Shown: one piece after another, positions 1 through 21,573 of the stretch
Layout: every line of letters starts with the position of its first letter
Position numbering within the stretch: position 1 is the first letter of the stretch
Source: Gammaproteobacteria bacterium
GTDB taxonomy: Bacteria > Pseudomonadota > Gammaproteobacteria > SZUA-152
DNA: 35,370 bases
Assembly: GCA_015487095.1 (NCBI GenBank)
Contig: WFQM01000284.1
Span: 1-35,370, forward strand
Direction: 5' to 3'
The notes under the pieces: generated by a model
Seen by the model: only the letters and a program-made list of their open reading frames with translations
Databases searched by the model: none
What the model was told of the DNA's origin: nothing
Made by a program: the position numbers and the translations under genes

Positions 1-76
1 GAAGAACATCAGTCCTTTCAACCTGTATTACTCTTTACCCAACCAAAAAGCGACAGTTAGTGCTCGAGCGATCTTA
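1..76 (+). repeat. 76-bp dispersed repeat, left copy (possibly truncated by the window edge)
   Basis: gaagaacatcagtcctttcaacctgtattactctttacccaaccaaaaagcgacagtt...gagcgatctta recurs in direct orientation at 21126-21202 with a few differences. Confidence 0.85.
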
Positions 77-251
77 GGGATGGAACACAATAACTTATAC
101 GATTGGCATCTCTGCTTCAGCCCGTATTTGCCCGTTCTTCAATCGAAAAAACTCGAAATAGAACAACTATTCCTGCATTTTTGCTCAATCAGAACAAACA
201 AATACGAACTAAATCAGAGCGCCACTTATATAAGTTATTGTGTTCCATCCC
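77..251 (+). mobile_element. MITE-like non-autonomous element, copy A (175 bp)
   Basis: 23-bp perfect terminal inverted repeats GGGATGGAACACAATAACTTATA / TATAAGTTATTGTGTTCCATCCC, flanked by TTA (74-76 and 252-254). A same-length copy lies inverted at 20709-20883 (about 8 mismatches by eye). No coding capacity. Confidence 0.85.
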
Positions 252-274
252 TTAACTGATGTTACGCAGGTCTC

Positions 275-6881: not shown

Positions 6882-7706
6882 ATGAAGTCGAGCGGTAATA
6901 TTAAGCGTTCTTTAGTTTCCGGGATAAAAAAAATATCAATATGGACATTTTTTTTATCGCTGTTAGCAGTATCATTTGTTATTTTTCTCACTCAATCAGT
7001 ATTACCGGTTTCTTCTGATTCTCAGGATTTGCATCGTTTGGCCGGAGAACAATTGGCGCTAAATGGCCGTGGTAAAATTCCTGCCTGTGTCCCATGTCAT
7101 GGTTTACAGGGACAGGGGAATGCTGGAATAGCGAGTCCCAGGCTGGCTGGGTTGCATCCGGAGTACATTAAAAAACAATTAGAAGATTATGCGCGGAATC
7201 CCCTGAAAACACGGGCTTTTGTTGAACCCATTGCACGCGACTATGTTAAAACCCCCCGAACCTATGGTGACCTGACGGTATTCACGCCGGGCACCCGTTA
7301 CGCTCCTAAAATGAATGAGCTGGCTAAAATTCTGAGTGTTGATGATCGGCATAATCTGGCGATTTATTATAGCAAACTGGCTTTTGTGGCCAGCCCGAAG
7401 GCATATGATTTTGAAACCCTGGAACGAGGTGAAGACCTGGCTTTGCGTGGAAAACCGGAATACGGGTTGCCTTCCTGTGATTCTTGTCACGGTCCTGGAG
7501 GACAGGGTTTTGGCGCAATTTTTCCTCCCTTGGCCGGTCAGCCTGTCACGTACATTATTGCGCAAATTAATCAATGGCAAGCCGGGAAAAGGGATAATGA
7601 TCACTTGGCATTAATGAGGAATATTGCTGATCAACTTACCGATGGAGATAAGGTCAACGTAGCTGCGTACTATGACAATTTGTCATACTCCGTTAATAGC
7701 GAGTAA
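6882..7706 (+). CDS. tsdB: Dihaem cytochrome c, c4 type (TsdB-like)
   Basis: N-terminal signal/TM, two CXXCH motifs (CVPCHG, CDSCHG) in two homologous halves. Ends 5 bp before a TsdA-family gene. Confidence 0.75.
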   Translation: MKSSGNIKRSLVSGIKKISIWTFFLSLLAVSFVIFLTQSVLPVSSDSQDLHRLAGEQLALNGRGKIPACVPCHGLQGQGNAGIASPRLAGLHPEYIKKQLEDYARNPLKTRAFVEPIARDYVKTPRTYGDLTVFTPGTRYAPKMNELAKILSVDDRHNLAIYYSKLAFVASPKAYDFETLERGEDLALRGKPEYGLPSCDSCHGPGGQGFGAIFPPLAGQPVTYIIAQINQWQAGKRDNDHLALMRNIADQLTDGDKVNVAAYYDNLSYSVNSE

Positions 7707-7711
7707 TACAA

Positions 7712-8629
7712 ATGAAGCGATTTTTTTTGAAATGGGTTTTAATTTTCAGTTTTTATAACATGGCTGTATTACCTGTTGCAGCACAAGAACTTGGACAAAC
7801 TCTGGATAGTCTGGAAGTCAGGCCCAGCCTGGTAAATTCACGGCTCAGTTTGCCGACGCAATTAACCCAGGTACATGTGATCAGTCCGGGTGAATATTTT
7901 GCCCCCCCGTTGGTGGCAGATATTCCCGATGACAGGTTCGGTGACATGGTGAGAATGGGGCGAAATATTTTCATTAAGACCGGTGTATATGCCAAACGTT
8001 ATGCCGGTAACGGATTAAATTGTTCCAGTTGTCATTTACAGGAAGGTCGCAAGCCACATGGCATTCCTTTATGGGCAGCTTACGGAAGATATCCAATGTA
8101 CCGCCACAAAACTCGCACGGTAGTAACGATTGAGGAACGTATTCAGGATTGTTTTATATACAGTATGGATGGTATTGCACCAACGCTGGATGCACCGGAA
8201 ATGAAAGCTCTGGTCACTTATACAAAATGGCTTTCAAAAGGCGCGCCTGTCGGTGTAGACCTCCCGGGACGCGGTCTTCCTAATGTGAGCCGTACGCAGG
8301 ATCTGGACCCAAAGCGTGGAAAAATTGTCTATGAGATCCGTTGTGAATTTTGTCACGGAAAAGATGGTAAGGGACAAAAACATACAAATGGTGAAGGTTA
8401 TATGTTTCCGCCTCTGTGGGGGAGAAATTCTTATAATAAAGGTTCCGGGTTACAACGTGTCAGAACGTTGGCAAAATTTATCAAAGGCAACATGCCCCTG
8501 GGAGCCAGCTTCAGTTTGACAAACCAGGAGTCGTTGGATGTGGCAATTTACATTTGGCTGCAAGATCGCCCCAGGAACCCAAAAATGAGTCAGGCGATGG
8601 ATTTCTTTTTTCCAAACATGGCACGCTAA
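7712..8629 (+). CDS. tsdA: Thiosulfate dehydrogenase (tetrathionate-forming) family, dihaem cytochrome c
   Basis: Two haem motifs (CSSCH, CEFCH). TsdA-like segments NCSSCHLQEGRKPHGIPLWAAYGRYPMYR, TIEERIQDCFIYSMDG (candidate Cys axial ligand), PPLWGRNSYNKGSG, IKGNMPLGASFSLTNQESLDVAIYI. Confidence 0.85.
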   Translation: MKRFFLKWVLIFSFYNMAVLPVAAQELGQTLDSLEVRPSLVNSRLSLPTQLTQVHVISPGEYFAPPLVADIPDDRFGDMVRMGRNIFIKTGVYAKRYAGNGLNCSSCHLQEGRKPHGIPLWAAYGRYPMYRHKTRTVVTIEERIQDCFIYSMDGIAPTLDAPEMKALVTYTKWLSKGAPVGVDLPGRGLPNVSRTQDLDPKRGKIVYEIRCEFCHGKDGKGQKHTNGEGYMFPPLWGRNSYNKGSGLQRVRTLAKFIKGNMPLGASFSLTNQESLDVAIYIWLQDRPRNPKMSQAMDFFFPNMAR

Positions 8630-8635
8630 ATAGTT

Positions 8636-10525
8636 ATGACCACTAAAACAAATTGGGTTTACACAGTGTTTCCTTTCTTGCGCTGGATATCCATGCTCAA
8701 TCGGGAGGTTGTTAAAGCAGATATTATTGCAGGTGTTACTGCCGGAGTGTTGATATTGCCGCAAGCTATTGCGCTTGCAACATTAGCAGGTCTTCCGCCT
8801 GAATATGGGCTGTACACCTCGATATTTCCCGTTATGTTTGCCGCGTTATTTGGCTCATCCTGGCACGCCATGTCAGGTCCTAATACAGCATTAAGTATAC
8901 TTATTGCTTTTACCATTGCCCCGTATGCCAGTATTGCCTCGCCTGAATGGATTCAATACGCTGTTACCCTGGCATTCATGGCAGGTGTTATTCAGATTGC
9001 GCTAGGTTTGTTACGTCTTGGTATTATATTTAACTATTTCTCCCAAACTGTAACGATTGCACTGATTACCGGTGTTGGCATTATCATTATTGTCTCCCAG
9101 CTGGGTAATTTTATGGGTGTCTTGATGAATATCGCTGAGCCGATAGAAGATGCTATCCCTCAAGTTATTTACGGTATATCAAGAGCTAATGGGTTTGCTG
9201 TGTCTGTTGGTGTTGTTACCGTACTTTCGGGATTGCTGATCAAACGCTACTACCCAAAGCTGCCCTTTCTTATTATCGCAGTTATCGTGGGGATGTTATT
9301 CGCGACTGGATTGGAATTAACACTGGGTGAATCCAATGTGGGCCTGGATAAACTGGGTACCATGTCATTATCCGCATTACCACTTTCTTCCCCGGATTTT
9401 AGTCCGGAGAATTTTGCTGAAGCCTCTCAGGGCTTATTACCCGCAGCCTTTGTAATCGCATTTTTAGGTCTGATACAGGCGTCTCTTATTGCCCGTGCTA
9501 TGGCAATTAAATCGGGCCAGTGCATTGATATTAATCAGGAGGTTTTGGGGCAAGGTATCTCAAATCTGGCAGGCAGTTTTGTTTCCTGTTTTCCCAGTTG
9601 CAGTTCTTTTAACCGTAGCGCATCCAATTTTGAATCAGGCGGGAGAACGCCCTTATCTGCGCTGATATCCGTTGTTACCCTGGGAGTTCTCGTTGTATTT
9701 GCCGCTCCACTTATCGCACATATGCCAATTTCTGTAATGGCTGCCATATTATTATTAGTAGGTGCAGGGCTGATTAAAAAAAATGACATCAAAAAAACAC
9801 TTTTGGAAAAAAGAGAGAATCAATTTATTTTTGCTTTGATTTTATTTTCTACAATCTATGGTGGTGTTGATTACGCGGTATTTTTTGGTATCGTTTTGTC
9901 TATTATTGCCTACTTGAAAAATGTATCAAAACCTGAAATAGAACTGTTGACAGGGAAAGACGTGCAGCAATATCTTCCTCAATCTGTATCTGGATCGGTT
10001 GTACAGAATACCGTGTCCAGAGAAGGTAAAAAATGCTATCAATATTCACAGAATAAGTGCGTTTTACTTCCTTCCGAAGAAAAAAAATATAATGATCTAA
10101 ATGTGCAAATACCCAAACGATTTGACCACGTTACAGTATTGCAGATTTCAGGCAGTTTGTTTTTTGGTTCTGTGATGCATTTAGAGAGTGTTTTGACAGA
10201 ATTAAGAAAACAAGATGGCGGAAAAGGGGATTTAATCATCTCAGGTGAGAACCTCCAGTCGGTCGATGGCACTGGTGCGGAAGTTTTGGTAAGAGAAGCT
10301 CAAAGCCGCACAAGGGCGGGTGCCCGAATGTTATTGTGGCTGCGGAATCACAACCACGATGCAGTGCTTCATTCCAGTGGGTTGAAAAAAATTATTGGTG
10401 AAGAGAATATTTATTACTTGAAAGAAAATAATAACGGGGATCACCAGGATCACCAGGATCACCAGGATCACCAGGATCACCAGGATCACCAGGATCACCA
10501 GGATCACCAGGATCATGTGGCATAA
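8636..10525 (+). CDS. SulP-family anion (sulfate-type) transporter with C-terminal STAS domain and (DHQ)8 tail
   Basis: VKADIIAGVTAGVLILPQAIALATLAGLPPEYGLYTSIFP; SGPNTALSILIAFTIAPY; STAS segment VTVLQISGSLFFGSVMHLESVL...VDGTGAEVL. Confidence 0.92.
   Translation: MTTKTNWVYTVFPFLRWISMLNREVVKADIIAGVTAGVLILPQAIALATLAGLPPEYGLYTSIFPVMFAALFGSSWHAMSGPNTALSILIAFTIAPYASIASPEWIQYAVTLAFMAGVIQIALGLLRLGIIFNYFSQTVTIALITGVGIIIIVSQLGNFMGVLMNIAEPIEDAIPQVIYGISRANGFAVSVGVVTVLSGLLIKRYYPKLPFLIIAVIVGMLFATGLELTLGESNVGLDKLGTMSLSALPLSSPDFSPENFAEASQGLLPAAFVIAFLGLIQASLIARAMAIKSGQCIDINQEVLGQGISNLAGSFVSCFPSCSSFNRSASNFESGGRTPLSALISVVTLGVLVVFAAPLIAHMPISVMAAILLLVGAGLIKKNDIKKTLLEKRENQFIFALILFSTIYGGVDYAVFFGIVLSIIAYLKNVSKPEIELLTGKDVQQYLPQSVSGSVVQNTVSREGKKCYQYSQNKCVLLPSEEKKYNDLNVQIPKRFDHVTVLQISGSLFFGSVMHLESVLTELRKQDGGKGDLIISGENLQSVDGTGAEVLVREAQSRTRAGARMLLWLRNHNHDAVLHSSGLKKIIGEENIYYLKENNNGDHQDHQDHQDHQDHQDHQDHQDHQDHVA
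10439..10510 (+). repeat. 9-bp tandem repeat (gatcaccag)x8, in-frame Asp-His-Gln tail
   Basis: 72 bp of perfect 9-bp units inside the 3' end of the SulP gene, followed by a partial unit gatcat. Confidence 0.98.
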
Positions 10526-10539
10526 ATGGGGGGGTAAGG

Positions 10540-10965
10540 ATGAAAATTAGGAAATGGCTGCCAGGCATCATGTGTTTGATACTACTTGTTGGTACGGCAT
10601 GGTCCAGTGAAACACCACGTTATAGTCTGCTACTACAGGTTAGTGAAGACAGCCTGGATAAGCTGAATCTCGCTTTAAATAATGCCAAAGATGTACAAAA
10701 ATCTTTTGGTCCTGAAAATATAGAAGTGGAAATAGTGGTGTTCGGTGCTGGTGTTCATACATTAAAATATTATGCACCGGCACCGATATCTGACAAGGTA
10801 AAAGCAGCCACATACAGCGGGGTACGTATTGTTCTTTGTGAAATTTCTATGCGCGCGGCCAATCTGCGTCCTTCTGATATGCTGCAATCTGTACGTTATG
10901 TGCCTTCAGGTGTTGCTGAGATCGTCGAGAAACATACCCTGGGGTGGACTTATATACGTCCTTGA
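10540..10965 (+). CDS. Periplasmic DsrE/DsrF-like family protein
   Basis: Signal peptide; YSLLLQVSEDSLDKLNLALNNAKDVQKSFG...VEIVVFGAGVHTL...GVRIVLCEISM...YVPSGVAEIVEKHTLGWTYIRP fits the DsrE-like fold family. Confidence 0.75.
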   Translation: MKIRKWLPGIMCLILLVGTAWSSETPRYSLLLQVSEDSLDKLNLALNNAKDVQKSFGPENIEVEIVVFGAGVHTLKYYAPAPISDKVKAATYSGVRIVLCEISMRAANLRPSDMLQSVRYVPSGVAEIVEKHTLGWTYIRP

Positions 10966-10966
10966 T

Positions 10967-12730
10967 ATGCAGAAATTGAAAATGAAACTAATAACCAGAT
11001 GGGTATGTTCAGTATTTTTATACAGCATATTTTTTTCATCTGTACAGGCAGATGACAATACAATCACACTGATACACATGGGTGACATCCATGGGCATCT
11101 TGTACCTCGTCCTAATATGCGGGACAGTGAATCAACTACAGAATACAAAGTGGGTGGGCTTTCCTATTTATACAGCGCAATAAAAAAAATTCGTGAAAAA
11201 AATACCAATACATTATTGATTAACACGGGGGACACCATACAAGGGTCTGCCGAAGCCTTGTTTTCCCGTGGCCAGATTATTGTCGATATACTTAACAAAT
11301 TTGATATCGATGCCTTTGCACCGGGAAACTGGGATTTTTTATACGGTACAAGGCGTTTTATCGAGCTTTTTTCAGGGGAAAATCCAAAAGCCAACTGGAA
11401 TGCTCTGGCTGCTAACCTCTATTATGTCACCCTCTATGAATACCCCCTCACACCCTATCCACAAAAAGCAGGGCGGCGGGTTTTACCATCACATTTGATT
11501 AAACAAATGGGTGATATAAAAGTAGGTATTGTCGGCCTTACTGCTGAGCGTGGCCCACAATCCGTGAGCCCGTTTTTAATGGATGGGTTTTATTTAAGCC
11601 CCGGTGAGGAAGAGCTTGCAGAAGCCATATCTCTGCTGAAAAAAGAAGACAAGGTTGATTTGATCATACTGATTTCAGAGCGTGGCCTGTCTTCCAATCT
11701 TGATATTGCAGAACGAATTCCAGGTGTTGATATCATATTATCTTCAGATATGCATGAAGAAACCCGGGAGGTTTTGCAAACAAAAAGCGGTACATTAATT
11801 ATAGAAGAGGGCCAGGATGGTACCATGCTCGGAGAAATCACTCTGACAATTACGGATAAGAAAATCAGCAATTGGAACTGGAAGCCCCATTTTATCAATA
11901 CCCGTGATTATAAACCCGATCCGGAAATACAGGCAATGATCGAAAAATACCGGAGACCTTTTATAAAAGGGCCGGGTTTTGTATCCCATGTTAATCCTGT
12001 TAATGCGGCAGTATTACGAACACCCATCGATACCGTCATCGGCTATACAAAAGTTGCCTTGCACCGTTCCAATTTTTCCGATGCTGCATCTATGCCCGCA
12101 GTAGTAGAAGGTTCGTCCCACAATTTTCTTTCCGATGCATTCAGGCTGGCCTGTAATGCCGATGTGGGTGTTATTCGCGGGTTTCGTTATGGCACACACA
12201 TTGCTCCGGGGCCAATCCGTCTTGAAGATATTTACCACTATATTCCCATTGGGCCGCAAATTGCCTGCGGTAAAGTGTCAGGTGATAATTTATACCTCGC
12301 CATTGAAAGGTCTGCTGATGATGTTTTCAGTGGCTGGGTTGCCAATTGGGGAGGGGGCTGGTTACAGGGATCTTCAGGTATTACTTACACACTTGATCCG
12401 GGCAATGAATATCGGGTGAGGGTATCGAATATGCGTATTAATGGTGAATTACTGGATGCTACGCGCATGTATACCGTTGCAGGTTATTGGTATCTTGACA
12501 ACTCACATAAGATCAATGGCATGCTTGCTCAGGAAATCAAAGTGTTAAAAGACAGGTATGGCGGTATCGTGGATGCAACGGAAGTTGTTTCCTATTATTT
12601 ACAATCCCTGCCGAGTAAAACGGTTGATCCGGAAAAAAACCGTATCCACTTGTTAAAACCTTTGCCCAAACCCATCAGTAACAATAAAGAAATACAACCA
12701 TTGCGGGGTATACCCCGTCCGGATTATTAA
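10967..12730 (+). CDS. Metallophosphatase/5'-nucleotidase superfamily protein, SoxB-like
   Basis: ITLIHMGDIHGHLVPR; LLINTGDTIQGSAEALFSRGQIIVDILNKFDIDAFAPGNWDF; C-terminal 5'-nucleotidase domain. ATG 10967 is one base after the upstream stop; the listed start at 10829 would overlap the DsrE-like gene. Confidence 0.75.
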   Translation: MQKLKMKLITRWVCSVFLYSIFFSSVQADDNTITLIHMGDIHGHLVPRPNMRDSESTTEYKVGGLSYLYSAIKKIREKNTNTLLINTGDTIQGSAEALFSRGQIIVDILNKFDIDAFAPGNWDFLYGTRRFIELFSGENPKANWNALAANLYYVTLYEYPLTPYPQKAGRRVLPSHLIKQMGDIKVGIVGLTAERGPQSVSPFLMDGFYLSPGEEELAEAISLLKKEDKVDLIILISERGLSSNLDIAERIPGVDIILSSDMHEETREVLQTKSGTLIIEEGQDGTMLGEITLTITDKKISNWNWKPHFINTRDYKPDPEIQAMIEKYRRPFIKGPGFVSHVNPVNAAVLRTPIDTVIGYTKVALHRSNFSDAASMPAVVEGSSHNFLSDAFRLACNADVGVIRGFRYGTHIAPGPIRLEDIYHYIPIGPQIACGKVSGDNLYLAIERSADDVFSGWVANWGGGWLQGSSGITYTLDPGNEYRVRVSNMRINGELLDATRMYTVAGYWYLDNSHKINGMLAQEIKVLKDRYGGIVDATEVVSYYLQSLPSKTVDPEKNRIHLLKPLPKPISNNKEIQPLRGIPRPDY

Positions 12731-12749
12731 GCTTGTTTCTCTCTTTTTC

Positions 12750-12779
12750 CTTATATAACTTATTGTGTTCCATTCCTTA
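12750..12779 (+). mobile_element. Solo terminal-inverted-repeat remnant of the MITE-like element
   Basis: cttatataacttattgtgttccattcctta matches the right end of copy A (cttatataagttattgtgttccatccctta) with 2 differences. No left end found nearby. Confidence 0.7.
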
Positions 12780-12840
12780 AATGACTCAGATTAAGCTGAG
12801 GATGGGTAAATCAATATAAGGTGTCTACTAAAACACAGTC

Positions 12841-12865
12841 ATTCCGGCACGTTTTTAGTCGGAAT
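12841..12865. repeat. REP-like hairpin attccggcacgtttttagtcggaat
   Basis: Same family as 1834-1858 (ATTCCGGC...TAGYCGGAA). Confidence 0.6.
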
Positions 12866-12900
12866 CCAATTCCCAAATGGCAAACAAATAATGGGAAATA

Positions 12901-15900
12901 TCAATTATTACGAATGTGATTCAGTGTTAGCAGAGCTACCTGCTCTACTGTCGCGCCACTCATGATGTCTAATATTGGCATCATGAGACCATATTTCTCA
13001 CCCATGCTGCCGGAAAATTCAACGGCCATAAGGGAATTGACGCCGATATCCACAATTCGTGTATGCATTTCAATTTTTTCGGCTGGTATTTTCAATAACG
13101 CTGAAAGTTCATTTCTCACAAGTTCTTTGAAAAAGTCTTGCTGTGCTTCTTCATCAAGGTCTTTAATGCTGGCCCGTGTTTGAAGTAGTGCGTCGGAGTT
13201 CCCACCTTTAGCATCATTCATGATGTCTTCATATATTGGCGGTATCCAGTCGGTGGGTAGTATTGCGCTCCATTTTTTCCAATCCAGGTCGAAGTAAGCA
13301 ATTTGTGCGGGTGATGTTTGATAGGCAAATTGTAAAAATTCACCCACCTGAATGGGCTTGATACCCGAGAATCCTGCATTGGCAAAAAAATCTTCAACCT
13401 CTTTTCGTTCAGAAACAATGCCGCTATCAGAAACTACGCCGAGGTTCACCGTTGTTGCGGGTAAACCCAGGCCTTGGCGGTAATGGGAGAAAGCATCCAG
13501 AAAACAGTTCGCCGCAACGTAGTTTGCCTGCCCGGGGTTTCCTATCAAAGAAGATACCGATGAAAAGCTGAAGAAAAATTCCAATGGCATGTCCAGGGTC
13601 AGTTGGTGAAGGTTCCAGGCTCCACGCACCTTGGGTGATAGCACTTTATCCATACGTTCTGGAGACAGCGACTGCAAAAAGTCGTCATCCAGGACCATTG
13701 CGCCATGTATCACACCTTTAAGTACAGGAATGTCGTCACTAACAGCACTAAAAGCCTCTTTTAGTGCTTCTCTATCAGCAATGTCCACGGCTATTATTTT
13801 TACCCGGCAACCTTTGGCCTCAATCTCTTTTACTGTCTCGATGGCATAATCACTTGTCAAACCTCGTAAGCTTAATAAAACCAAATATCTGGCACCCTGA
13901 GCTGCGGCCCATTTTGCAAGCTCCAGCCCCAGTCCTCGGGTTCCACCGGTAATAAGATAGGTGGCATCTGCGACAAATAAGGGTTTTTCACTATAGGGGA
14001 TATTGGCTTCAACCATGGCATCCGCAGGAAATGTCAGTAAGCCCGGTGCAATATTATGCTCGCTATTTAAAGTATTGAAGATATCTGACAACTGGTTGTG
14101 CGTGTAACAGGTTAATGAATGTTCATAATCAAACCGGATAGATGATTGTGTCATGAATGTTTTTGCTCGTAATAATATCTCCGATGACTGTGGTTTATTC
14201 AGGTTATTAATGCTTGATGACAGATAAGTAATATTTCGTTCTGATAATACTTTCCAGAGAGTTTCGTCATAAGTGATATTCTCGCCCAATGCCAGTAATC
14301 GGCCATAATATTTAATTTTATGGTAAGTCGAAAAGCCAGTGTTAGTGTTACCGCAATCGATCAATATGTCATAAGCTGCCTGTTTCTGAGCATCAGTATC
14401 CAGAACATCAAAATCCAACCCTTGATGCTGAAGCAAGGCGCTGACTAATTTACCTGTCTCATTATGTTGGCCTGAGAGTAGAATTGACCGGGTTGTGCCT
14501 AACTGAAGTGCATCAAAGGCGGCACATACCGGTAATGTTAATGATAGCGGTGCCCAATATTGTTGCGATTTGCAAGGCATCAACCATTTTTTGTCCACTG
14601 CCAAAAATGTACTCAGTTCCTGGTCAAAGCCAAGAAAACTGACTTTATCACCGGGCTGGAACTCAGTATCTGTGCTTCTGCCGGGAACAATGATTTCACC
14701 CCAGCCTTCCCATCGGCCTCTACCGGTGCTGAGATTAACTGTTTGTTTTGTCATATCACCGATATAGTAAGAGATAACACGCACAATACATTTATCAGGA
14801 TGAATGGCCGGTGCCGATATTTTATTGAATAAGTCTGATTTAGGATTATAGCTTAGCGGATTTTCCAGCGCCTCTTTCGCTAGCCGACTCTGAGGTTGTA
14901 GGGATTTTTCTTCCACTCGCTCTAAACGGTGTATGTAACGCTTTCCGTCGCGATAGGCAATTTCGGACTCCATATCTTCAAACAGGAATTCTTTTACCAA
15001 TAAGTCAATTTCATTGTCGCTCAGGTTATTTGCTCGATCAAAATCAACAGATTTGCAGCGTTTTGAAACAATTTCACTCATCAATACACGTTGAATACCC
15101 CAAAGCGTGGATGAGCCCAGTCCTTCACATTTATCAGAGTGTACAACATGATTTGCATGGCTCACTGCCAGTCCTACCTTGAATTGTCTGTGCAGAATAT
15201 CTTGCCGTGACATGGAAAATAGCGATAACAAGAGGATATCACCATTCTCATAATGGTCTATCGGAGTGTTTTCTCCCAAATGCCACAAATAAATCATAGC
15301 GGAGAATTCAAAGCCAGATAAATCTTGCCACAATTGTTTCCAGTGTTGCTCATTTTTGGGATTAACAGAATAATTATTTCCGCCAAGAACGTTATAATCA
15401 TCATCCCGGAAAACCTGTATACAGCCAGGGTCCTGTTCTCTCCAGGCTTGGGAGATACTTTTCTGGTTATGCCTTAAAAAAACAATAGAGTTTGAAGAGT
15501 CTTTTTTTCTTTTTATTTCATTGTTTTCTTCATGCCAGGTCATTTTATACAGGTTTCCGCCATATTTCTCATCAGTGGTCTGTAAGGCAGGTACTTCGCG
15601 ACAGATAATACCTTTTACCTGAACTAAAAGTGTTCCATTTAGATCAAAAATATCAAAGTCAGCTTTCAGTTCTCTTGTTGTTCTTGATGCCACTTTCAGA
15701 TAGCACCAGAATTCCTCTTGGGGGCTGGTCTTGATGATGAGTTGTTCAAGTGCAATGGGTAAATAGGGCCGTTCTGAATCAATTTGGAGAATGGCCAGGG
15801 TTTGAAAACAAGGGTCAAGCTGACAGGGGTGTAAATAATAATCTTCCTTTAACAGTTCTGTAGGTGTTTTGATTTTTACCAATGCCTCATCATTTCCAAC

Positions 15901-18900
15901 GTAAATCTCCTGTACGCCCTGGAAGGTGGGGCCATACTGCAATCCCACATCCGCCAGCATGGTGTAGAAATTTTCCACATTGTAAGGGTCGCCAAACTTA
16001 TTTTTTAAAGTAGTAAAATCATGTTTGGTTTCGTTAAAAATTTCTTGATATGCCCGCATTCTGGAGCCTGCATGGTAGGTCCATGTGTGATTTGCCTGAT
16101 GGTTCTGGCTATAAACGGAAAAACGCTGACGTTCATGGCTATAGTGTATTTGTATTCTTTGGCTATCTTTTTCACGATAAACAAGAGGCGTGTTGAATTG
16201 AACATCTTCCAGAATACAGGGTTTGTCGCCAAATATTTTTTTACATAGCATTAAACCGGCTTCAATATATGCAGCGCCTGGATTCAGAACCAAACCTTCT
16301 ATTTTGTGATCGGTTAACCAGGGAAAGTAATTCAGGTTAAAATCCACTTCCCAGGCAGGATGAGGTAGACGTAAATCCAAAGAAAAAATGGGATGTTCAG
16401 AATTTCCTAAGCGATCCTCCCGGGTATAGGGGTCTTCACCCCAGTAAATTTCTTTATCCCAACAGTACATCGGTAAGCTGGTAAGTTTTCCGTTGTTACC
16501 GCCGAACTTCGACCAGTCAATGTCGTAGCCTATGCAATATAATTGTCCCAGGCTGAGTAAAATATTTTCTCGTTCAGGTTTTTTGCGAACCAGGGAGCTG
16601 ATTGTATGCCCACGTTTTTGTTCTGCCTGTAAACACTGTTTGATGGCGGAGCCCAGTACGGGGTGAGGACCAATTTCTACAAATACATTGGCATCATTAT
16701 TAATCATCGAGATGGTACTTTGAGCAAAACAAACAGGGCGGCGAACATTTTTCCACCAGTATTCTGTATTAAAGCAGTGGCCTTCTTCGAGTTTGCCAGT
16801 AACACTGGAGTACAATGGTTTCGTTGTGCTGGAAGTTTGAATATCTTTTAAACTTTCGAGTAGCTCAGTTTTCAGGCCATCCATGACAAAACTGTGGAAA
16901 CCGGTTTTTACATGTAGTTTACGGTGGAAAATTCCCTCATCTTCGAGCGTTTCTGAAAGTATGGAAATAGCTTCCAGATTTCCGGAAAGAGTGACTGCTC
17001 CCGGGCTGTTAATAGCCCCTATACACAAGCGATCACCATAGGGTTCAATATAATCAGTAATATCACTTGTGCTTAAGCCGACAGCCAACATACCACCTTC
17101 GCCATCGGTGTGCTGTTGTAATCGGCCCCGGTGATAAATAACTTTTAGTGCATCTTTCAGGCTGAGAGCACCCGCTGCGTGAGCTGCCGCAACTTCTCCC
17201 AGGCTATGGCCTACAATCAGGTCGGGTTCCACACCGAGCGACTGCCAATAGGCGGTTAATGCATACTGCAAGGCAAAGTTGGTTGGCTGAGTGATATCGG
17301 TTTGTGTGATATTGGAGGTTTCCTCATCCTGGGAAAGTTCTTCAATCAATGACCAGCCAGAAATCGGTTTGAAGGCAGTGTCGCAGGCTTCCAATGCATT
17401 CCTGAATACAGGCTGAGTTTCCATAAGCTCACGACCCATTGCCCACCATTGTGGACCCATACCGGTATAGACGAATGCGATTTTTGTATTTTCTTCACCG
17501 TCTCCAGAGGTGATATGGGGTGCCAATTCATCCCTGGCATAATCACGCAGTTTGTTTTTTAAATCTTCCAGGTTTTCAGCGTATATGGCCAGTCGTTTGT
17601 TGTAATGGCTGCGTCTATACCGTACGGAATAATATACATCATCGAAGTCATCTGCGGATGCAATTCGGTCTGCCATCATAAGGGCGCTCTTTTTTAACGC
17701 ACTTTCACTGCGGGCTGACAAGGGGAATAAAATGGGCCAATTGATGGTGGATTCAGGTTTTTTTACTGCTGGTGTTACCGTAGGCTGATATTTTTCAACA
17801 ATGACATGTGCATTGGTCCCACCAAAGCCAAAGGAGTTAATGCTGGCGAGCGGGACATCACATTCTGGCCAGTCCTGGTTTTTCAATGGTATCTGTACAG
17901 CAAGGTTGTTAAAATCAACCTCAGTATTACCCTCTTTAAAATGAATATTTTGTGGAATAATATCGCTCTGCAAGGATAATGTGGTTTTAATCAGACCAGC
18001 GATACCCGCTGCGGCTTCCAGGTGGCCAATGTGAGATTTGGCCGACCCAACAAAGACCTTTTCTTTTTTTTCTGTATCAGTATTGCGTTGGCTCATTAAA
18101 TCATGCAGGACGCCCAGTTCGGTGGAATCACCTGCTTTAGTACCGGTACCATGGGCTTCAATATATTGCACATCAGAATAACCAACACCTGCTTCCGCAT
18201 ATACTTTTTCAATCAGTGATTTTTGTGAAGAAGGGTTTGGTAAAGTGATGCCTGCTGTTCGGCCATCCTGATTAACCCCAGTATTTTTGATAATGGCATA
18301 TATTTTATCACCATCGGTTTCAGCCTCACTTAATCGTTTCAAAAACGCAATACCACCACCTTCGCCACGACCATATCCATCTCCGCGGTGGTCAAAACTC
18401 ATGGAACGCCCGTGGGTAGATAGGAACCGGCCTTTTGATAAAGTGATCGTCGTTGTTGGGTTTATCATCAGACTTATGCCGCCCACAACAACGATTCGAC
18501 ATTCGTTATTCCACAGGCTGTTGCAGGCATAGTGGACTGCGACCAGTGAGGAGGAACATGCGGTATCCATTGTAACACTTGGTCCCTTCAGGTTAAGGGA
18601 ATAGGAAATCCGGTTAGACAATAAGGTGCAGGAAACGGCAGTCGATGATACGGAGGAAATTTCTCTGCGATTAAGATAGTGAGTATGCAGACTAAGATGA
18701 TCCATAAAAAATCCGCCCATAAACACGCCAGTATTGCTGTCAGATAAATCTTCCAGACGAATGCCGGCATCATCAGCTGCTTCAATAACCAGTTCCAGAG
18801 CCAAGCGTTGTTGAGGGTCTAAAATCTGTGCTTCACGGGGTGACAGACCAAAAAATAATGCATCAAAGGCGGCAATATCAGTATCGAGAAAAGCACCTTC

Positions 18901-19101
18901 ACGCATGTACATTTTTCCCGGTTTGTCAGGATCAGGGTCATAAAACTTTTTAGTACTCCAACGATCACCAGGCACTGGAATAACCGTGTCTTTACCGGCA
19001 ATAAGATTGTCCCAGAATTCGGTGGGCGTATTACCTCCACCCGGTAAACGGCATGACATGCCGACGATTGCGATTGGCTCTTTATTCTCATTCTTTTTCA
19101 T
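12901..19101 (-). CDS. Type I polyketide synthase, single module: KS-AT-DH-(degenerate ER)-KR-ACP, no thioesterase
   Basis: KS: DTACSSS, EAHGTGT, KSHIGHLEAAAG. AT: GHSLGEVAAAHAAG. DH: DHKIEGLVLNP and LDPCFQ. KR: LITGGTRGLG, VLDDDFL, S/Y/N in FSSVSSLIGNPGQANYVAAN. ACP: DIGVNSLMAVEF. Start set to ATG 19101: AAGGAG 8 nt upstream and ATGA overlap with the preceding stop; the ORF track lists 19134. Confidence 0.95.
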   Translation of the reverse strand: MKKNENKEPIAIVGMSCRLPGGGNTPTEFWDNLIAGKDTVIPVPGDRWSTKKFYDPDPDKPGKMYMREGAFLDTDIAAFDALFFGLSPREAQILDPQQRLALELVIEAADDAGIRLEDLSDSNTGVFMGGFFMDHLSLHTHYLNRREISSVSSTAVSCTLLSNRISYSLNLKGPSVTMDTACSSSLVAVHYACNSLWNNECRIVVVGGISLMINPTTTITLSKGRFLSTHGRSMSFDHRGDGYGRGEGGGIAFLKRLSEAETDGDKIYAIIKNTGVNQDGRTAGITLPNPSSQKSLIEKVYAEAGVGYSDVQYIEAHGTGTKAGDSTELGVLHDLMSQRNTDTEKKEKVFVGSAKSHIGHLEAAAGIAGLIKTTLSLQSDIIPQNIHFKEGNTEVDFNNLAVQIPLKNQDWPECDVPLASINSFGFGGTNAHVIVEKYQPTVTPAVKKPESTINWPILFPLSARSESALKKSALMMADRIASADDFDDVYYSVRYRRSHYNKRLAIYAENLEDLKNKLRDYARDELAPHITSGDGEENTKIAFVYTGMGPQWWAMGRELMETQPVFRNALEACDTAFKPISGWSLIEELSQDEETSNITQTDITQPTNFALQYALTAYWQSLGVEPDLIVGHSLGEVAAAHAAGALSLKDALKVIYHRGRLQQHTDGEGGMLAVGLSTSDITDYIEPYGDRLCIGAINSPGAVTLSGNLEAISILSETLEDEGIFHRKLHVKTGFHSFVMDGLKTELLESLKDIQTSSTTKPLYSSVTGKLEEGHCFNTEYWWKNVRRPVCFAQSTISMINNDANVFVEIGPHPVLGSAIKQCLQAEQKRGHTISSLVRKKPERENILLSLGQLYCIGYDIDWSKFGGNNGKLTSLPMYCWDKEIYWGEDPYTREDRLGNSEHPIFSLDLRLPHPAWEVDFNLNYFPWLTDHKIEGLVLNPGAAYIEAGLMLCKKIFGDKPCILEDVQFNTPLVYREKDSQRIQIHYSHERQRFSVYSQNHQANHTWTYHAGSRMRAYQEIFNETKHDFTTLKNKFGDPYNVENFYTMLADVGLQYGPTFQGVQEIYVGNDEALVKIKTPTELLKEDYYLHPCQLDPCFQTLAILQIDSERPYLPIALEQLIIKTSPQEEFWCYLKVASRTTRELKADFDIFDLNGTLLVQVKGIICREVPALQTTDEKYGGNLYKMTWHEENNEIKRKKDSSNSIVFLRHNQKSISQAWREQDPGCIQVFRDDDYNVLGGNNYSVNPKNEQHWKQLWQDLSGFEFSAMIYLWHLGENTPIDHYENGDILLLSLFSMSRQDILHRQFKVGLAVSHANHVVHSDKCEGLGSSTLWGIQRVLMSEIVSKRCKSVDFDRANNLSDNEIDLLVKEFLFEDMESEIAYRDGKRYIHRLERVEEKSLQPQSRLAKEALENPLSYNPKSDLFNKISAPAIHPDKCIVRVISYYIGDMTKQTVNLSTGRGRWEGWGEIIVPGRSTDTEFQPGDKVSFLGFDQELSTFLAVDKKWLMPCKSQQYWAPLSLTLPVCAAFDALQLGTTRSILLSGQHNETGKLVSALLQHQGLDFDVLDTDAQKQAAYDILIDCGNTNTGFSTYHKIKYYGRLLALGENITYDETLWKVLSERNITYLSSSINNLNKPQSSEILLRAKTFMTQSSIRFDYEHSLTCYTHNQLSDIFNTLNSEHNIAPGLLTFPADAMVEANIPYSEKPLFVADATYLITGGTRGLGLELAKWAAAQGARYLVLLSLRGLTSDYAIETVKEIEAKGCRVKIIAVDIADREALKEAFSAVSDDIPVLKGVIHGAMVLDDDFLQSLSPERMDKVLSPKVRGAWNLHQLTLDMPLEFFFSFSSVSSLIGNPGQANYVAANCFLDAFSHYRQGLGLPATTVNLGVVSDSGIVSERKEVEDFFANAGFSGIKPIQVGEFLQFAYQTSPAQIAYFDLDWKKWSAILPTDWIPPIYEDIMNDAKGGNSDALLQTRASIKDLDEEAQQDFFKELVRNELSALLKIPAEKIEMHTRIVDIGVNSLMAVEFSGSMGEKYGLMMPILDIMSGATVEQVALLTLNHIRNN

Positions 19102-20546
19102 TTTGACAACTCCTTGTTCATCGTCTTTCTCCAACAGCCATGAAAGGTCAGCGGTATTTCATTTTCAATATGGACTAATGTCAGTGGTCCCTGGTTTATT
19201 TCCCCACTTCTGAAAATGGCCAGATAATTACATTTATTTATTCCATCATGAATTAATGACATCAGTAAGCCGACAGACTCATTAGGGCCGAAAATCACTC
19301 CCTGCATGGTGGGTGCAAGTATTGGTTCAGAGCAATAAATACCTTCACCAAAACAATGCTCCTGTTGTATTCCTGTTTCCATATCAACTTGAACGACGGT
19401 ATTCCAAAAAGGGTTTTGAGTATTTCCTTTCACCATGTAGCTGAATTTGTTTTTTAAGCCGACACGATCAGGGTGTACGGTTGGAAATTCATAATTACCT
19501 TCAAACAAACGTGTTTCATGTAAATTACGGTTGTTTATATTAATTTCGTATCGCCATATTTCTCCGGGGGCATAGGGGCCATCAGCTGTGCCTGTCAGTG
19601 CATTTTTATACATGGGTGAAGTGCCCATGAGATGATCAGGTGATGAGTGCCCCACAAAATCCATGACTATTTTATCGTGGTCCTCCCAGGCATTGACTGA
19701 ATGTAACCACCAGCGTGCCTGTGCATCATAGTATTTAGGCGCTTCTTTTCCTGACTTGTGGTAGACAACAATCAAATTTCCTTCTTCGGGACGCCACTTT
19801 ATTGAATCGATAAAGCTCCGGGTTCCCGCCAATACTGACTGAATGCGTATAAATGCCGGGTGCAGGCACATGACGATATAATTTTCAGTTGTAAAGAAAT
19901 CATGCACATACACAGCCCGGGGAAGGATTTGTGAAAAGCTGTTTAATAATCTTCCTTCATTGTCAAGAATGGTGAAATAGACTTCCGCCTGCTTTCCATG
20001 CTTTAAACCAAAATGCAGCCATTGGTTTTGGAAGGTATGAATTTTGGAGTGTGCTGAAAATTCTGCCTGTGGATCTAACAGTCCCAGTGTTGAGCGGCCA
20101 ATTGTTTCCAGGCTGTCTGGATCCAGCTCGTAAGGACTGAACGATTCATCAAATGCAAACAGTTTTTTATGGTGAAAGACCGATGCGATATAAGCCTGGC
20201 TTTCATATTTAGGAGGCTCAACTTCATCAAACTCGCTCTGACCTGCTTGGAATGTCCAGGTGTCATAAATAAATTCTTTCTTCCTGGATTCTTCTACAAA
20301 TTTTTTTGTTTGGACAAAACGGCTTGTGTAACAAATATTATTACCGTCAAAAGCGAAGCTGTGAATCATGCCGTCGCCATCAACAAAATAGGATTTTTTC
20401 TGACCGTTTCGTTCAAATAAAGCAGGGCCACTACGATATAATACGCCGTGAAAGTCTGACGGTAATTTATTGCCGGTATTAATGTGTTTCTTTTTTTCGG
20501 AGGGTTCAGCATTTATCCAACTGTAATAGTATGGTTTTGTACCCAC
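19098..20546 (-). CDS. Carotenoid oxygenase family (RPE65/CCD/lignostilbene dioxygenase-like) protein
   Basis: DFHGVLYRSGPALFERNG...YFVDGDGMIHSFAFDG; candidate Fe-ligand His contexts FSAHSKIH, VYVHDFF, WWLHSVNAWED, PLTFHGCW. GTG start with an AAGGAAG SD upstream. Confidence 0.9.
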   Translation of the reverse strand: MGTKPYYYSWINAEPSEKKKHINTGNKLPSDFHGVLYRSGPALFERNGQKKSYFVDGDGMIHSFAFDGNNICYTSRFVQTKKFVEESRKKEFIYDTWTFQAGQSEFDEVEPPKYESQAYIASVFHHKKLFAFDESFSPYELDPDSLETIGRSTLGLLDPQAEFSAHSKIHTFQNQWLHFGLKHGKQAEVYFTILDNEGRLLNSFSQILPRAVYVHDFFTTENYIVMCLHPAFIRIQSVLAGTRSFIDSIKWRPEEGNLIVVYHKSGKEAPKYYDAQARWWLHSVNAWEDHDKIVMDFVGHSSPDHLMGTSPMYKNALTGTADGPYAPGEIWRYEININNRNLHETRLFEGNYEFPTVHPDRVGLKNKFSYMVKGNTQNPFWNTVVQVDMETGIQQEHCFGEGIYCSEPILAPTMQGVIFGPNESVGLLMSLIHDGINKCNYLAIFRSGEINQGPLTLVHIENEIPLTFHGCWRKTMNKELSK

Positions 20547-20708
20547 AATGATAACTTCCTTGTTATTACCTTAAATCATCACTTACAGGGGGTGATGACA
20601 GGGTTATATGTTTATTGATTACTTCTACTTTATTACATTTAAAGCCGATAAAAATATAATTGTTTACAATAAATACGAATAACCAAAGAGCAAAAAGAAT
20701 GATGGTTA

Positions 20709-20883
20709 GGGATGGAACACAATAACTTATATAAGTAGCGCTCTGATTTAGTTTGTATTTGTTCGTTCTGATTGAGCAAAAATGCAGAAATAGCTGTTCT
20801 ATTTTGAGTTTTTTCGATTGAAGAACGGGAAAATACGGGCTGAAGCAGAGATGCCAGTCGTATAAGTTATTGTGTTCCATCCC
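20709..20883 (-). mobile_element. MITE-like element, copy B (175 bp), inverted relative to copy A
   Basis: Same 23-bp TIRs, flanked by TTA (20706-20708 and 20884-20886). Reverse complement aligns without gaps to 77-251. Confidence 0.85.
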
Positions 20884-20955
20884 TTAGGGTCGCTTGAACA
20901 ATAACTGTCTCATTGGTGAGCGGGTTCGATTTTTTTTGGGGCTGCACAAGACTCT

Positions 20956-20982
20956 GGTGGAACCGCTACGCTTGTTCCACCC
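20956..20982 (+). repeat. REP-like palindrome GGTGGAACCGCTACGCTTGTTCCACCC
   Basis: Internal GGTGGAAC/GTTCCACC stem. Perfect 27-bp inverse of 21087-21113. Confidence 0.75.
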
Positions 20983-21086
20983 TGCGTAGATCACTGACGT
21001 TGGCGTATTCATAACCCGGGTCGGAAATGGGTCAGAATCAGCGGAGTGGTTTGTTTGTTCCGTCTCCTCAAACACAAGGTAAAGCC

Positions 21087-21113
21087 GGGTGGAACAAGCG
21101 TAGCGGTTCCACC
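21087..21113 (-). repeat. REP-like palindrome, inverted partner
   Basis: GGGTGGAACAAGCGTAGCGGTTCCACC, exact reverse complement of 20956-20982, forming a BIME-like pair. Confidence 0.75.
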
Positions 21114-21125
21114 AAAAGGTCAAGG

Positions 21126-21202
21126 GAAGAACATCAGTCCTTTCAGCCTGTATTACTCTTTACCCAACCAAAAAGCCACAGTTATTGTTCGAGCGATCCT
21201 TA
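21126..21202 (+). repeat. Dispersed repeat, second copy
   Basis: gaagaacatcagtcctttcagcctgtattactctttacccaaccaaaaagccacagtt...gagcgatcctta matches 1-76. Confidence 0.85.
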
Positions 21203-21573
21203 GCAGATAACAAATACATTAAAGAAGGGATATGAGGCAGTAAAATTACCTGTATTTTTAAGGTGTCAGCGTCTTGAGTACGTATGCTATTTAGATGGTT
21301 ACAGTAGATATGGACTTTCTTTGAGGCTTGTTTTTTGTGTTTGGCGAAGTTGTTTCTCATGCAATCATTAGTTTGTTCATTATATTGTATAGCTAAGCGA
21401 GTTTTGTTTAAAGCATAACTTGAAACCGTTAGTTTTTGTTGGGGGGATGTTTATGCCGTTGATATTTTATTTTTGTTGACGACAATTTTTTCTAACACGA
21501 CACAATAGTGGAAAAAATGAAAGACCATAGGCGTTGAAATTGTTACATGTCTGGACTTCATGACAGACTCTGT

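Follow-up and report, generated by a model that had tools for sequence, protein, structure and literature searches.

A carotenoid-oxygenase-family gene coupled to a polyketide synthase gene suggests a carotenoid-free route to retinal-like molecules

Why would a bacterium translate an enzyme of the carotenoid oxygenase family (CCD) together with a polyketide synthase (PKS)? The two genes form a cassette on the reverse strand of a 35,370-nucleotide stretch of gammaproteobacterial DNA (contig WFQM01000284.1; hereafter the window). The cassette suggests an undescribed route that makes and cuts retinal-like molecules without carotenoids. In our best reading, to which we give an even chance, a polyene made by the PKS is cleaved to aldehydes by the co-translated CCD.

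Anatomy of the two-gene unit

The CCD gene (19098-20546, minus strand) has a GTG start, encodes 482 amino acids and ends with a TGA at 19100-19098. The PKS gene (12901-19101, minus strand) begins with an ATG at 19101-19099 and its stop codon ends at 12901. It encodes a single-module, highly reducing type I PKS of 2066 amino acids. At the junction (19098-19115, minus strand) an AAGGAG motif at 19115-19110 is followed by an 8-nt spacer and by the PKS ATG, which overlaps the CCD stop as ATGA. Coordinates, strands and overlap are all as an earlier note on this DNA had described them. The AAGGAG and its spacing are kept in two other genomes of the genus, G002 and G004. The ATGA overlap is an exact match in G002. 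In G004 the CCD gene stops with TAA, leaving a 2-nt gap before the PKS ATG, and the AAGGAG is identical. Hence the 4-nt overlap is not invariant, but the coupling geometry is conserved nonetheless.

The PKS has the layout KS-AT-DH-psiKR-psiER-KR-ACP, with no MT and no TE. Pfam places the ketosynthase at residues 8-438 (17788-19080; all domains on the minus strand), with the motifs DTACSSS, EAHGTGT and KSHIGHLEA. The acyltransferase (residues 543-858; 16528-17475) carries GHSLG and GFHS, the latter suggesting a malonyl-type domain. The dehydratase (residues 903-1173; 15583-16395) carries HKIEGLVLNP and LDPCFQ, the ketoreductase (residues 1713-1891; 13429-13965) is found by Pfam and by motif scan, and the acyl carrier protein (residues 1994-2056; 12934-13122) has GVNSL. 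These are the five domains that the earlier note had named, all with intact motifs and with Pfam matches far beyond chance. It had missed a segment of about 530 residues between DH and KR, a structural psiKR followed by a degenerate psiER (residues 1180-1711; 13969-15564).

This segment is homologous to the psiKR-ER of mycocerosic acid synthase (MAS, PDB 9d2y; E 1.4e-18), which shares the order KS-AT-DH-psiKR-ER-KR-ACP with our PKS. MAS is a fully reducing enzyme that works with methylmalonyl-CoA; our PKS differs in its degenerate ER and its malonyl-type AT motif. A motif scan of the segment found no NADPH-binding G-G-V-G, as a functional ER would have. The segment is also the fastest-evolving part of the protein, with 69% identity to the G002 orthologue against 84% overall, KS and ACP being the most conserved parts. 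Its AlphaFold model has a pLDDT of 36 and was left out of the evidence. The missing motif and the fast evolution bear out the proposal that the PKS has KR and DH but lacks ER activity.

Since the PKS has a single module and the cassette holds no other PKS gene, it probably acts iteratively. An iterative PKS that has KR and DH, a degenerate ER and neither MT nor TE would be expected to make an unbranched conjugated polyene. There is a fungal precedent: LpaA, a mono-modular highly reducing PKS whose ER is inactive, suffices on its own for the polyene laetiporic acids (PMC7473843). LpaA and PPS1 resemble our PKS in having one module, an inactive ER, the order KS-AT-DH-psiER-KR-ACP and an expected polyene product. 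Unlike it, they are fungal, carry MT and TE and are described with no named CCD partner (PMC7473843).

The CCD matches the RPE65 profile (PF03055) over its full length (residues 27-473; E 8.8e-95), far beyond chance, so its family had been assigned correctly. Its nearest solved structure, by sequence and by fold, is Synechocystis apocarotenoid oxygenase (ACO, PDB 2biw; E 1.7e-46, about 25% identity). The predicted structure (AlphaFold; pLDDT 86, pTM 0.89) has the beta-propeller fold of ACO and RPE65 and superposes on ACO with a Foldseek TM of 0.88-0.89. The four iron-binding histidines (H166, H215, H282, H469) and three second-shell glutamates (E134, E353, E407), all shared with ACO, are invariant in a 6-sequence alignment with distant CCDs. 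Among 47 sequences the histidines and E407 are invariant and E353 is more than 90% conserved. The loss of iron ligands, which the earlier note had named as a way for its proposal to fail, is thus not what the residues and the modelled fold reveal. The CCD is probably an Fe(II) dioxygenase of the apocarotenoid-oxygenase type, with iron bound by four His, and would cleave alkenes oxidatively.

What such an enzyme would cleave is less evident from its relatives. ACO acts on linear apocarotenoids. The wider CCD family includes stilbene cleavers, and RPE65 demonstrates that its members can be isomerases. At the position of ACO Trp149, a lysine (Lys135) is reported for the lignostilbene dioxygenase PbLSD. 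Our CCD appears to have Asp133 there, the PbLSD residue being reached by way of ACO. The best sub-threshold NCBIfam match is lignostilbene dioxygenase, with 121.6 bits against an equivalog cut-off of 800. The apparent Asp133 and this low score suggest that the substrate pocket probably differs from those of both ACO and PbLSD. In a tree of 101 sequences the three CCDs of the genus form one clade, which lies far from every other CCD sampled and has a branch 1.9 changes per site long; the tree was built with a quick method, so that the position of the clade is unsure and its isolation clear. With so long a branch the reaction itself may have changed.

Distribution and inheritance of the pair

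If the two enzymes work together, their genes should travel together. The CCD is present in three of the 12 genomes of the genus: G000, G002 (86% identity) and G004 (93%). The same three carry the PKS orthologue (84% in G002 and 91% in G004). The remaining nine showed neither gene. Some of these are 73-86% complete, and the absence is firm mainly for G005, G009, G010 and G011, which are 93-99% complete. Other PKSs of the genus share at most 45% identity with the cassette PKS over any matched stretch.

The sister genome G009 has the empty site. The SoxB-like and u335 genes that flank the cassette in the window are adjacent there, and the 8.8 kb that hold the cassette and its upstream region (12739-21533) are replaced by about 111 nt (blastn of locus L203 against the window). 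G002 shares the upstream flank and differs in the downstream one. Both genes evolve under purifying selection, with dN/dS of 0.09-0.12. The joint presence and absence and the empty site support the view of CCD and PKS as one unit whose genes are gained or lost together, and the coupling is kept in all three carriers. Beyond the cassette, window 6882-12730 holds a row of genes for a cytochrome c, a SoxA/TsdA-like cytochrome, a SulP transporter, a DsrE-like protein and a SoxB-like protein, with a DsrC gene further on. By its gene content this is a sulfur-oxidation neighbourhood, and the host is sulfur-oxidiser-like.

The pair is narrowly distributed: its carriers are three species of one genus, and it was not found elsewhere in the data searched. 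In the class sample and in plasmids the best CCD matches reached about 29% identity at most. A scan of genome contigs, with at least 577 CCDs on at least 590 stretches, gave none above 28% among the matches listed. Viral contigs yielded no homologues. No PKS flanks the CCDs of 98 further loci (1.5 Mb), save for one weak KR-like match. Because this search, which was not exhaustive, found neither a close CCD nor a PKS-linked one, the pair looks like a genus-level innovation. We also found no description of a CCD-type I PKS pair in the literature, subscription papers being mostly outside the search. Both protein families are known, and the two-gene unit looks new. The suggestion that this is an undescribed system stands as far as the literature searched goes, for a pair found in one genus.

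What the pair may make, and the alternatives

The PKS, working iteratively on malonyl-CoA, would build a conjugated polyene on its own ACP, because its KR and DH are intact and its ER is degenerate. The CCD would then cleave a C=C bond of this polyene, and the product would be a polyenal or a two-ended oxo/acid compound. The PKS carries neither thioesterase nor reductase, so the same cut might also detach the distal portion of the chain from the ACP. In that case an iterative PKS would be off-loaded by the CCD, which would cut an ACP-tethered polyene and release a retinal-like polyenal; apocarotenoid-type molecules would arise by a polyketide route with no isoprenoid involved. This more specific version we consider somewhat unlikely.

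Cleavage of a PKS-made polyene by an oxygenase is known or proposed elsewhere. Fma-ABM (af470) cleaves a polyene oxidatively on the way to fumagillin, and Lim18 is proposed to do so for limocrocin; in both cases, as proposed for the CCD, the polyene is made by a PKS of the same pathway (PMC11727611). Unlike the CCD, both belong to the unrelated PF13826 monooxygenase family. Within the genus, a paralogous TE-less highly reducing PKS has an alpha-oxoamine-synthase-like PLP gene after it, so that a single off-loading or tailoring enzyme downstream of such a PKS is nothing unusual here.

Cleavage of a PKS-made polyene is thus supported by the intact PKS motifs with a dead ER, the LpaA precedent, the intact CCD residues and a fold closest to that of ACO. 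The co-occurrence of the pair, the empty site in G009, the low dN/dS, the absence of a visible endogenous carotenoid pathway in the CCD carriers and the PPTase-family genes (present in 12 of 12 genus genomes) point the same way. Against it, co-translation is no proof of a shared pathway. An oxo-acyl stub would be left on the ACP after cleavage, and another enzyme would have to remove it. Furthermore, a trans-acting ER could give a more saturated chain that the CCD could not cleave. The long branch of the CCD also counts against this reading, as its reaction may have changed.

The CCD might instead act on an unrelated substrate from outside (an apocarotenoid, a stilbene or another lignin-derived alkene) and merely be co-transcribed with the PKS. 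Most CCD relatives that we found are not linked to any PKS, and both the stilbene cleavers of the family and the sub-threshold lignostilbene dioxygenase match fit such a role. An endogenous carotenoid is an unlikely substrate. All 12 genus genomes have SQS_PSY-family genes, of which the only two in G002 are the hopanoid genes HpnC and HpnD, adjoining HpnE, and no CrtI scored over the cut-off in five genus genomes, three carriers included. A carotenoid taken up from outside is possible. However, the CCD stays coupled to the PKS and co-occurs with it, its clade is isolated and the phenol-contacting lysine (PbLSD Lys135) is apparently lacking, all of which speaks against an outside substrate and makes this explanation unlikely in our view. 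A further difference from ACO is the genetic link of the CCD to a PKS, in a host without a visible carotenoid pathway.

Quite unlikely, though worth considering, is that an unlinked trans-ER assists the PKS, whose product would be a lipid that is for the most part saturated or hydroxylated. The CCD would then isomerise or oxidise the few remaining alkenes, or supply an aldehyde or acid starter. Some highly reducing PKSs with a dead ER domain use trans-ERs, as in LovB/LovC, and RPE65 sets the precedent for an isomerase. A paralogous PKS operon with MMPL and LolA-like genes also looks like a lipid pathway. Yet the cassette and its surroundings showed no ER gene, and the CCD retains the ACO-type residues that one would expect of an oxygenase.

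That a CCD-made apocarotenoid serves as the PKS starter, as the earlier note had also considered, is very improbable: the CCD gene does come first in the operon, but with only hopanoid HpnC, HpnD and HpnE and no CrtI over the cut-off in the genus genomes searched, only an external carotenoid would do.

If cleavage of a PKS-made polyene is what the cassette encodes, CCD chemistry reaches polyketide polyenes, beyond carotenoids and stilbenes. Bacteria that lack carotenoid genes could then produce polyene aldehydes, and there would be a new way to end a chain on a thioesterase-less PKS.

Paralogous loci and repeats

The paralogous operon is conserved in the genus (loci L151, L152, L153 and L158/L159). 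It comprises a TE-less highly reducing PKS of 2056 amino acids, a BioF/SPT-like PLP enzyme, an MMPL transporter, a LolA-like protein and a 400-aa unknown protein; from its genes it looks like an outer-membrane lipid pathway. Another paralogous highly reducing PKS (L155) sits in a PKS-NRPS cluster. In G007 (L154, 6597-13672) the closest other PKS has an ER segment detectable by Pfam (ADH_zinc_N) and a LysR gene before it, and a PF13826 af470-like monooxygenase gene follows 204 nt downstream. This neighbour is suggestive only, and we rejected it as a general parallel (one case in eight), because seven further af470-like genes have no PKS nearby. CrtP, with which SmcC4 is grouped, we take to be a carotenoid-desaturase-type flavoenzyme and not a member of the RPE65 family. 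Simocyclinone SimC4/SmcC4 was dropped as a CCD precedent; the limocrocin paper makes this grouping (PMC11727611).

A MITE-like palindromic repeat, AGGGATGGAACACAATAACTTATA with its complement, occurs at window 74-254, 12750-12779 and 20706-20886. The PKS gene has a single arm just beyond its 3' end, and one copy sits upstream of the CCD gene. Genome-wide there are 50 arm-sized matches with at most one mismatch, and none with a reversed control pattern. A 104-aa open reading frame upstream of the CCD gene (20566-20880) was rejected as a gene; it is poorly conserved and overlaps the MITE-like repeats. Also upstream of the CCD gene is a second inverted repeat, TGGTGGAACCGCTACGCTTGTTCCACC, with 31-nt arms at window 20955-20985 and 21084-21114 that are 97% complementary.
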